The notes under the pieces: model-generated | Told to the model about the DNA's origin: nothing | Seen by the model: only the letters and a program-made list of their open reading frames with translations | Databases searched by the model: none | Shown: positions 38,849-40,102 of the stretch, piece after piece | How positions within the stretch are numbered: position 1 is the first letter of the stretch | Layout of the letters: the number at the start of each line of letters is the position of its first letter | Made by a program: the position numbers and the translations under genes | Assembly: GCF_014656435.1 (NCBI RefSeq) | Contig: NZ_BNCK01000004.1 | Coordinates: 248,001-312,000 of the forward strand | Direction: 5' to 3' | Source: Thalassotalea marina | GTDB taxonomy: Bacteria > Pseudomonadota > Gammaproteobacteria > Enterobacterales > Alteromonadaceae | Length of the DNA: 64,000 bases

Positions 38849-38925
38849 CGCGGGATGGAGCAGCCTGGTAGCTCGTCGGGCTCATAACCCGAAGGTCGTC
38901 GGTTCAAATCCGGCTCCCGCAACCA
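38849..38925 (+). tRNA. Initiator tRNA-fMet(CAU), copy 1
   Basis: A 77-nt tRNA nearly identical to E. coli metZ-type initiator tRNA. It has the unpaired C1 of CGCGGGA opposite A72, the GGG/CCC anticodon stem (CGGGCTCATAACCCG), anticodon CAT and an encoded CCA. It is followed by the spacer that recurs in the array. Confidence 0.98.
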
Positions 38926-38961
38926 ACATTTGGTTAAAGCTAGATAAGTTAAGTGTAAAAA

Positions 38962-39029
38962 GCCCTCGGGCTCAGTTCTCTTATAAACCCTAGCGAAGGT
39001 CATCGGTCTAAATCCGATTCCAATAGCCA
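38962..39029 (+). repeat. Degenerate tRNA-fMet-like repeat d1
   Basis: A 68-base sequence resembling the tRNA-fMet 3' portion from the D-arm end onward. The anticodon region reads CGGGCTCAGTTCTCTTATAA instead of CGGGCTCATAA, the T-arm is altered, and the 3' end reads AGCCA. The 5' acceptor strand is absent. The T-stem here is fully paired (ATCGG with CCGAT). Confidence 0.8.
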
Positions 39030-39065
39030 ACATTTGGTTAAAGCTAGAAAAGTTAAGTGAAAAAA

Positions 39066-39133
39066 GCCCTCGGGCTCAGTTCTCTTATAAACCCTAGCGA
39101 AGGTCATCGGTTTAAATCCGATTTCAGTAACCA
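39066..39133 (+). repeat. Degenerate tRNA-fMet-like repeat d2
   Basis: It has the same insertion in the anticodon region as d1 and an A-T-rich T-stem that is still fully paired (ATCGG with CCGAT). The spacer before it is nearly identical to the spacer before d1, so d1 and d2 look like a duplicated pair. The 3' end is GTAACCA. Confidence 0.8.
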
Positions 39134-39183
39134 AGGTTTTCACTAAGACAGAAAGCAATCGAAAGTATCTTCTTTCAAGGCTT

Positions 39184-39200
39184 ACTTGATAACATCAAGT
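39184..39200 (+). repeat. Hairpin spacer motif before tRNA-fMet copy 2
   Basis: ACTTGAT, loop AAC, ATCAAGT forms a perfect 7-bp stem just upstream of the tRNA. The same hairpin recurs before copies 3 and 4 and may mark RNA processing between units. Confidence 0.6.
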
Positions 39201-39208
39201 CATTCGGA

Positions 39209-39285
39209 CGCGGGATGGAGCAGCCTGGTAGCTCGTCGGGCTCATAACCCGAAGGTCGTCGGTTCAAATCCGGCTCCCGCAACCA
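39209..39285 (+). tRNA. Initiator tRNA-fMet(CAU), copy 2
   Basis: Identical to copy 1 over its full length, with anticodon CAT and encoded CCA. It is preceded by the 17-base hairpin motif and followed by the spacer that also follows copy 1. Confidence 0.98.
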
Positions 39286-39320
39286 ACATTTGGTTAAAGC
39301 TAGATAAGTTAAGTGTAAAA

Positions 39321-39388
39321 GCCCTCGGGCTCAGTTCTCTTATAAACTCTAGCAAGGGTCGTCGGTTCAAATTCGGCTCCCGCAACCA
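39321..39388 (+). repeat. Degenerate tRNA-fMet-like repeat d3
   Basis: It shares the anticodon-region insertion with d1 and d2 but keeps a normal tRNA-like 3' part: GTCGTCGGTTCAAAT and then GGCTCCCGCAACCA, close to the functional gene. No matching 5' acceptor strand lies upstream. Confidence 0.82.
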
Positions 39389-39419
39389 ATTTAGGTCTTA
39401 AAAGATACCTTCAAGGCTT

Positions 39420-39436
39420 ACTTGATAATATCAAGT
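39420..39436 (+). repeat. Hairpin spacer motif before tRNA-fMet copy 3
   Basis: Same ACTTGAT/ATCAAGT stem with loop AAT, directly ahead of copy 3. Confidence 0.6.
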
Positions 39437-39444
39437 CATTCGGA

Positions 39445-39521
39445 CGCGGGATGGAGCAGCCTGGTAGCTCGTCGGGCTCATAACCCGAAGGTCGTCGGTT
39501 CAAATCCGGCTCCCGCAACCA
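39445..39521 (+). tRNA. Initiator tRNA-fMet(CAU), copy 3
   Basis: Identical to copies 1 and 2, with anticodon CAT and encoded CCA. Confidence 0.98.
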
Positions 39522-39557
39522 ACATTTTGGTTAAAGCTAGAATAATAGAGTGTAAAA

Positions 39558-39625
39558 GCCCTCGTGCTCAGTTCTCTTATAAATCCTAGCGAAGGTCGTC
39601 GGTTTAAAACCCGCTCCCGCAACCA
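39558..39625 (+). repeat. Degenerate tRNA-fMet-like repeat d4
   Basis: It carries the shared insertion, with CTCGTGCTCAG at the stem start, a drifted T-loop (TTTAAAA) and an intact CTCCCGCAACCA end. It is placed after copy 3, with the same order as copy 2 and d3. Confidence 0.8.
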
Positions 39626-39685
39626 AGTTAGTTAGAATTTTTTCACTAACACATAAAGAAATCAAAAGTATTTCTTTAAAGGCTT

Positions 39686-39702
39686 ACTTGATAATATCAA
39701 GT
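39686..39702 (+). repeat. Hairpin spacer motif before tRNA-fMet copy 4
   Basis: Third occurrence of the ACTTGAT/ATCAAGT stem, with loop AAT, immediately before copy 4. Confidence 0.6.
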
Positions 39703-39710
39703 CATTCGGA

Positions 39711-39787
39711 CGCGGGATGGAGCAGCCTGGTAGCTCGTCGGGCTCATAACCCGAAGGTCGTCGGTTCAAATCCGGCTCCCGCAACCA
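39711..39787 (+). tRNA. Initiator tRNA-fMet(CAU), copy 4
   Basis: Identical to the other three copies, with anticodon CAT and encoded CCA. After it the array continues only with degenerate repeats. Confidence 0.98.
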
Positions 39788-39825
39788 ATCTCCTACAATT
39801 AAATTCAAATTAAACATAAAATAAA

Positions 39826-39892
39826 ACCCTCGGGCTCAGCTCTCTTATAAACCCAGCGAAGTTCATCGGTTTAAATCTGGCTCCCGCAACCA
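39826..39892 (+). repeat. Degenerate tRNA-fMet-like repeat d5
   Basis: It has the anticodon insertion in the variant CAGCTCTCTTATAA, a mutated T-arm, and an intact GGCTCCCGCAACCA end. d5, d6 and d7 share this variant and form a separate sub-family. Confidence 0.8.
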
Positions 39893-39930
39893 ATCTCTAT
39901 GATATCCATTTCATAATTCTCATAAAGAAA

Positions 39931-39997
39931 GCCCTCAGGCTCAGCTCTCTTATAAACCCTGCGAAGGTCATTGGTTTAAATCTGGCTCCCGCAACCA
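39931..39997 (+). repeat. Degenerate tRNA-fMet-like repeat d6
   Basis: Same sub-family as d5, with CTCAGGCTCAGCTC at the stem start and the conserved CCCGCAACCA end. The bases after it repeat the spacer that follows tRNA-fMet copy 4. Confidence 0.8.
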
Positions 39998-40035
39998 ATC
40001 TCCTACAATTAAATTCAAATTAAACATCAAAGAAA

Positions 40036-40102
40036 GCCCTCAGGCTCAGCTCTCTTATAAACCCAGCGAAGTTCATCGGTTTAAATCTGGCTCCCGCAAC
40101 CA
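40036..40102 (+). repeat. Degenerate tRNA-fMet-like repeat d7
   Basis: The last repeat of the series, close to d5 and d6 and ending in CCCGCAACCA. No clear rho-independent terminator is visible between it and the following DUF1653 gene, so array transcripts may run further or end by another means. Confidence 0.8.

Follow-up and report, generated by a model that had tools for sequence, protein, structure and literature searches.

The four initiator tRNA genes of Thalassotalea marina lie in an array interleaved with, and followed by, seven repeat units derived from the 3' part of the same tRNA. The array is real and known in kind, being of the type of the tRNA-linked repeats (TLRs) of Escherichia coli, which are located in tRNA or rRNA operons and close with an 18-19 bp copy of the 3' end of the gene before them (PMC8144298, in its available part); it is unusual in its extent and in the repeated breakage of the tRNA loops. 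We find it somewhat probable that the array forms an initiator-tRNA operon whose trailer repeats are of the TLR type; these would have been spread by unequal exchange and would probably be co-transcribed with the genes. The array had been singled out in an earlier prediction, made from the sequence alone (the original prediction), within the window, i.e., the whole stretch of 64,000 nucleotides that was analysed.

On the plus strand the order is tRNA1-d1-d2-tRNA2-d3-tRNA3-d4-tRNA4-d5-d6-d7 (Table 1). The four tRNA-fMet genes are identical in sequence, as originally predicted, and were detected by both ARAGORN and Rfam. The seven units, described as truncated at the 5' side and sharing an insertion in the anticodon region, were recovered as such: the signature CTCAG[TC]TCTCTTATAA was found seven times, and TRF reported tandem arrays at the locus with periods of 104 and 105, the period of the d units being 103-105 overall. 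Compared by eye with tRNA-fMet, every unit is devoid of the 5' acceptor strand and of most of the D arm, about 10 bases are added in the anticodon loop, 3-4 more are found behind that stem, and a T-arm-like stretch is kept. Also by eye, the homology starts at the end of the D arm, in agreement with the prediction, or at the 5' strand of the anticodon arm. The proposed division into two sub-families, d1-d4 and d5-d7, is borne out by their spacers, which differ, and by the T or C in the signature. The spacer of d1-d4 is the sequence found behind tRNA1-3 and that of d5-d7 the sequence found behind tRNA4; since units and genes have these spacers in common, tRNA-plus-tail modules were copied together. 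The 3' end of the tRNA, expected to be kept, is indeed kept in d3-d7, but it is poor in d1 and d2.

The array is preceded by a divergent ORF on the minus strand (36468-38624), which we take to be rlmL, and followed by a small plus-strand ORF within 40201-40416, presumably a DUF1653 gene. The candidate promoter agrees with the consensus in 8 of 12 bases, which is under the threshold of the promoter scan and explains why it is missing from the output; a like layout was seen by eye in the congeners G001, G003 and G004. Elsewhere in the window (2234-2657), four tandem tRNA-Asn genes (spacing 131, 108 and 108) are without partial units, in contrast to the fMet array.

Table 1. Features of the initiator-tRNA array and positions in the window.
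Feature	Position	Strand	Signature start	Detail
Candidate promoter	38784..38821	+		TTGCAA, 17 bases, TAACAT, then ACGCCTCGC; by eye
tRNA-fMet 1 (CAT)	38849..38925	+		ARAGORN, Rfam
d1	38958..39029	+	38971	13 of last 19 bases match tRNA, exact run 3
d2	39062..39133	+	39075	14 of last 19 bases match tRNA, exact run 5
tRNA-fMet 2	39209..39285	+		ARAGORN, Rfam
d3	39317..39388	+	39330	18 of last 19 bases, exact run 15
tRNA-fMet 3	39445..39521	+		ARAGORN, Rfam
d4	39554..39625	+	39567	17 of last 19 bases, exact run 13
tRNA-fMet 4	39711..39787	+		ARAGORN, Rfam
d5 (second sub-family)	39822..39892	+	39835	18 of last 19 bases, exact run 14
d6 (second sub-family)	39927..39997	+	39940	18 of last 19 bases, exact run 14
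d7 (second sub-family)	40032..40102	+	40045	18 of last 19 bases, exact run 14

A possible identity of d1-d7 as ordinary tRNAs could be rejected, as the original prediction had anticipated: none of them has a complete cloverleaf, and they were called neither by ARAGORN nor by the Rfam tRNA model at E ≤ 10. At the same threshold the Rfam RtT model gave no match in 38700-40250, and only two Rfam matches overlap the units, both weak, on the minus strand and from unrelated families (SNORD87 and mir-TAR). The folding z-scores of d1-d7 ranged from -2.4 to +0.4. For the class B units of the relatives described below, the RNAalifold consensus contained zero predicted pairs. Covariation was measured on 17 units hand-picked from 59 class B units, against a two-helix structure written by hand: 76.4% of the cells were paired, vs. 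72.8% in shuffles, and 4 pairs were changed on both sides, vs. 2.0. The share of paired cells was reached by 3 of 500 shuffles, the covariation score and the number of double changes by 30 of 500, and two slid versions of the structure contained more double changes than the structure itself. Covariation in class B units is weak, and a strong conserved RNA fold is unsupported, given a consensus folding without pairs and this weak covariation. A terminator scan of 38600-40300 found none on the plus strand. On the minus strand the same scan gave four (1.4 expected for both strands together), three of them inside d2, d6 and d7; these terminator-like hairpins (39077-39064, 39942-39929 and 40047-40034) face possible transcription from a convergent ORF at 40509-40778.

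Partial tRNA ends were then counted in the whole genome, for which Rfam gave 76 tRNAs, the same number as the ARAGORN tRNAs of the window array and 24 further tRNA loci taken together. A partial end was defined as a 15-base match with ≤2 mismatches, a limit that leaves out the degenerate d1 and d2; chance 15-mer matches are negligible by an arithmetic estimate, and the 3' counts include full-length degenerate copies. With this definition, 23 partial 3' ends occur at 8 of the 25 loci, vs. 6 partial 5' ends at 2 loci. The tails consist of 4 units behind Val-TAC (period 138-139), 7 behind Arg-ACG (period 141), 3 behind Thr-TGT (period 119), one unit and a decayed second behind Leu-TAA, and a single 3'-end unit behind each of the Lys, His and Tyr genes, so that a feature of the fMet locus only is excluded by these tails and by those of other genera. 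Apart from the decayed second Leu unit, all of them keep 18-19 of the last 19 bases. Identity is 19 of 19 in Val (4/4), Thr (3/3), Leu, Lys and Tyr (1/1 each) and in 4/7 Arg units, the other 3/7 having an exact run of 18, which places all these units within the 18-19 bp rule for TLRs; the His unit, with 18 of 19 and a run of 17, is marginally under it. A terminator-like hairpin followed by a T run is visible by eye in every Arg, Thr and Leu unit but is not obvious in the fMet and Val units. In addition, at the 5' boundary of many units the tRNA-derived strand is complementary to the bases just upstream, with which it forms a small perfect hairpin (by eye); this was seen in the Leu, Thr, Val and several fMet units of this genome and in units of relatives. 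An array of opposite polarity to these tails was observed at tRNA-Ser-GGA (L039, G000:C6:110700-115400), where, on the reverse strand, four tandem copies of the 5' end (starts 3074, 3211, 3326 and 3441; spacing 137, 115 and 115, then 114 to the gene) lie upstream of the intact gene.

The exact signature is found in the 4.87-Mb genome only in the seven units of the window, with three further matches at two mismatches, and it is absent from the 4 congeners. Among 395 genomes of the family, exact matches were seven in this genome and one in G168, so that a single other genome has the signature, once, and the exact insertion of the window is almost private. At ≤1 mismatch the signature matched 44 of the 395 genomes, which is to be read as noise, because a backward-read control matched about 64. 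A looser pattern matched 23 of the 395, mostly by chance as judged by eye; its best result was three matches in G109, the pattern having two N where most relatives have none. The idea that one defective ancestor was amplified along with the array fits an insertion that all units have in common and a signature that is almost private.

Relatives of rlmL with 60-68% identity were found at 7 loci, assigned to Litorilituus, Colwellia, Thalassotalea, Thalassomonas and Alteromonadaceae. In all four congeners a divergent rlmL (70-75% over the first 250 residues) lies upstream of the fMet array, and the arrays of G001-G004 have tail units of their own, with a period of 97-104 and, in G004, additionally of 66. 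In the congener units the break lies in the T loop (class B), in those of the window in the anticodon loop (class A). Congener loci gave 18 partial 3' vs. 0 partial 5' ends at 5 loci, one of which (L035) holds no complete tRNA. At 36 further family loci there were 53 partial 3' vs. 10 partial 5' ends, 6 of the latter belonging by eye to degenerate copies of full length, which are counted in the 53 as well. By the 15-mer criterion, 3' units are present at 21 of the 36 loci and absent from 15, and a divergent rlmL lies upstream within the fetched stretch at 24; these loci were taken one per genome, closest tRNA matches first, from among the matches listed (114 of 118 genomes had a match) and are therefore a non-random sample.

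The 95 partial ends, 90 of them distinct, were sorted by patterns that themselves contained CT into 59 of class B (22 labels, 21 genomes including the congeners), 18 of class A, two of which look like class B by eye, and 13 others, which by eye are six full-length copies (class C), one displaced piece in G002 and six chance matches. Class A was also sorted from G021, G045, G066, G083, G087, G099, G109 and G112. Full-length tRNA-fMet-like copies precede the true genes in G007, G033 and G041 (L097, L094 and L092); their D, anticodon and T loops are changed, and the anticodon stem is apparently lengthened by complementary bases. As for the other tRNAs, Val tails were present in 7 of 12 other genomes fetched, the tail at L116 being a poor one, and 2 of 8 genomes had a Leu tail. 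In G002, a 3' piece of 45 bases that starts CTCATAACCCG, with repeat units behind it, is separated by 91 kb from the last complete tRNA-fMet. The G002 array (L034 and L035; G002:C1, 2100231 and 2009162) looks as if it were split by an insertion or rearrangement, and an additional, slightly diverged tRNA-fMet is found at the near end.

The units could, on the other hand, be a neutral satellite, in which tandem tRNA genes duplicate and decay, recombination re-copies their 3' half, and the products have no function. We judge this less than probable, though far from negligible: the signature is almost private, the classes turn over within one genus (A in the window, B in the congeners), 15 of the 36 family loci, chosen among the closest matches listed, are without a 3' unit, and covariation is weak. 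What speaks against it is the conservation of the inserts. One unit per genome was compared (Val, 7 genomes, 21 pairs; class B, 12 genomes, 66 pairs; class A, 9 genomes). In Val the insert block had an identity of 0.75 vs. 0.57 when shuffled, a score lowered by the unit of G003, which is a decayed last copy; the 45 bases before the unit had 0.59 vs. 0.59 and the tRNA 3' part 0.92. In fMet class B, the T-loop insert had 0.67 vs. 0.55, the spacer 0.61 vs. 0.57 and the boundary block 0.80 vs. 0.55. In class A, the values were 0.70 vs. 0.54 for the anticodon insert, 0.57 vs. 0.55 for the spacer and 0.93 vs. 0.62 for the core. The inserts are thus conserved across genera beside spacers at or near the shuffled level, and since the inserted blocks are absent from the tRNA, gene conversion cannot maintain them. 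Free decay alone is therefore too simple, the spacers being saturated and the loop inserts having diverged less from genus to genus. The comparison speaks for constraint but falls short of proof, because the genomes are unequally related, the pairs are not independent and the class members were picked by similarity. Free variation between close relatives, named beforehand as the mark of mere decay products, gave a mixed picture: none of the 4 congeners has the exact signature, but these carry their own units, in the same place and with the same architecture, and inserts exceed spacers in conservation between genera.

The insert is often CTCTT with A-rich flanks, and for this reason it was compared with boxA. 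The loop insertions might be boxA-like sites, at which NusB/S10 would reload an antitermination complex along the untranslated array or aid Rho-dependent termination at its end; we regard this as unlikely. The boxA consensus and its contrasting roles are treated in PMC5725501, and the boxB-boxA order in PMC10250234 (both in their available parts). In one or two units per genome, mismatches to the gammaproteobacterial consensus GYTCTTTAANA were counted against dinucleotide shuffles, giving 2.27 vs. 3.85 for the anticodon class (0/400), 2.75 vs. 3.35 and 2.50 vs. 4.05 for the T-loop classes (0/400 each), 2.50 vs. 3.72 for the full-length class (2/400) and 2.86 vs. 3.70 for Val (3/400); since the units of a set share descent, the shuffles overstate the enrichment, and the classes had first been sorted by the patterns containing CT. 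A unit of G112 carries GCTCTTTATAA, with 1 mismatch, the rRNA spacer of T. marina carries GTTCTTTAACA, and at ≤2 mismatches the plus strand of the array has 8 sites in 1.2 kb (7 in d1-d7), the minus strand 1. However, no unit has a perfect match (1-4 mismatches among the units tested), the window units have 2 mismatches and one common ancestor, such sites occur about 2.0 times per kb per strand in the window, and at ≤1 mismatch the window has 23 sites vs. 22.7 expected, none of them in the array. Moreover, boxA is absent from the Thr, Arg and Leu tails, and the full-length class fits better on the reverse complement (2.00). The units resemble the boxA of rRNA operons in having a CT-rich box after a small hairpin, an order that copies the boxB-boxA of rRNA leaders, and they deviate from it by those mismatches. 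For the window insertion the boxA-like reading is possible but weak, and we would give quite little credence to its extension, the boldest reading, in which the family turned broken tRNA copies into carriers of regulatory boxes; small CT-rich sites in the anticodon or T loop of tRNA-derived hairpins, repeated along tRNA operons and behind them, would then bring in Nus factors and govern read-through or termination of the entire operon.

Two further origins were weighed. The units may be scars of attachment sites, where integrative elements recombining in the anticodon or T loop displaced the 3' half of the tRNA, which was amplified later, an improbable course in our view. It would be in line with the displaced piece and repeat units of G002 and with several units that by eye start at the anticodon loop (G055 and G067), and tRNA gene fragments arising from integration have been described (PMC9897764, in its available part). 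However, by eye no integrase was recognised among the ORFs of at least 60 aa near the window array, the ORFs of at least 120 aa at the two G002 ends comprise one cytochrome-like ORF (by eye) at one end and none at the other, and the inserts within the loops are left unexplained. Very unlikely, in our opinion, is the proposal of the original prediction, a trans-acting sponge RNA analogous to 3'ETS-leuZ, a precedent found in the available part of PMC8144298: the units do sit in the trailer of a tRNA operon, but their sequence changes between congeners, which makes conserved targets unlikely.

In the reading that we prefer, that of an initiator-tRNA operon with trailer repeats, the downstream copy of the tRNA 3' end would let unequal exchange with the true genes add or remove units; the same exchange would carry units into the spacers between genes and keep their 3' ends alike. 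The units would be transcribed with the operon from the upstream candidate promoter, and tRNA maturation might cut them out as short trailer RNAs. The insertions may persist in the anticodon or T loop, which they disrupt, because a near-tRNA must not serve as initiator tRNA, and also because the inserted stretch is itself under some constraint. In favour of this reading are the anatomy of the array, the excess of partial 3' over partial 5' ends, the recurrence of such tails behind other tRNA genes and, next to divergent rlmL, in the congeners, the order shared with tyrTV, the conserved inserts and the transcribed and processed TLRs of the E. coli rRNA operons. The weak covariation, the folding z-scores of d1-d7, the 15 of 36 family loci without a 3' unit, the almost private insertion, the shortfall of the window units from 18-19 bp identity and the reverse polarity at Ser-GGA count against it. 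The interpretation in the original prediction is partly supported; it overlooked the generality of the tails, which occur at several tRNA loci of this genome and in many genera, and their named counterpart, the TLRs of E. coli. Tails behind several tRNAs, in many genera and with a comparable insertion block, offer comparative material on whether such repeats are recombination by-products or trailer elements, and the recurrent breakage hits the loops, not just the 5' half.

TLRs have been in the E. coli literature since 1978 and number 22 at ten loci; according to the available part of PMC8144298, those in tRNA operons are without an accepted function, three in rRNA operons (rrA, rrB and rrF) undergo transcription and processing and are bound by Hfq and CsrA, and the claim of a role in the stringent response for the tyrT TLR (rtT) was retracted. 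The available part of PMC4986893 repeats that claim and reports members of the RtT family in Pasteurellaceae. These are likewise a family of tRNA-operon trailers, but they are assigned to the Rfam RtT family, of which there is no match here. In the literature surveyed, such repeats are not reported outside Enterobacterales and Pasteurellaceae, which carries little weight, as the older literature lies outside the survey. The rrA, rrB and rrF repeats, located between dual rRNA terminators, are trailer repeats with the 3' end of a stable RNA, as are the units described here; the Thr, Arg and Leu units of T. marina resemble them by eye in the terminator-like hairpin and T run, and the fMet units differ in having no plus-strand terminator in the scan. 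As to location, the d units lie like TLRs, between and behind four tRNA-fMet genes of the same strand. Their best exact run is 15, and d3, d5, d6 and d7 fall short of the 18-19 bp identity by one mismatch in 19; we therefore call them TLR-type, rather than strict members. The closest likeness in order is to the TLRs of E. coli tyrTV (rtT/RttR), which are in tandem, between and behind the genes, and close with a copy of the 3' end of the preceding tRNA; in K-12 (NC_000913.3) tyrT is followed by one unit of 175, then by tyrV and three units of 178. The period is 175-178 in these TLRs and 103-105 in the window, the tRNA homology of the former covers about 19 bases and that of the latter extends to the anticodon arm, and the window units differ in a loop broken by a short insertion and in the degenerate 3' ends of d1 and d2.
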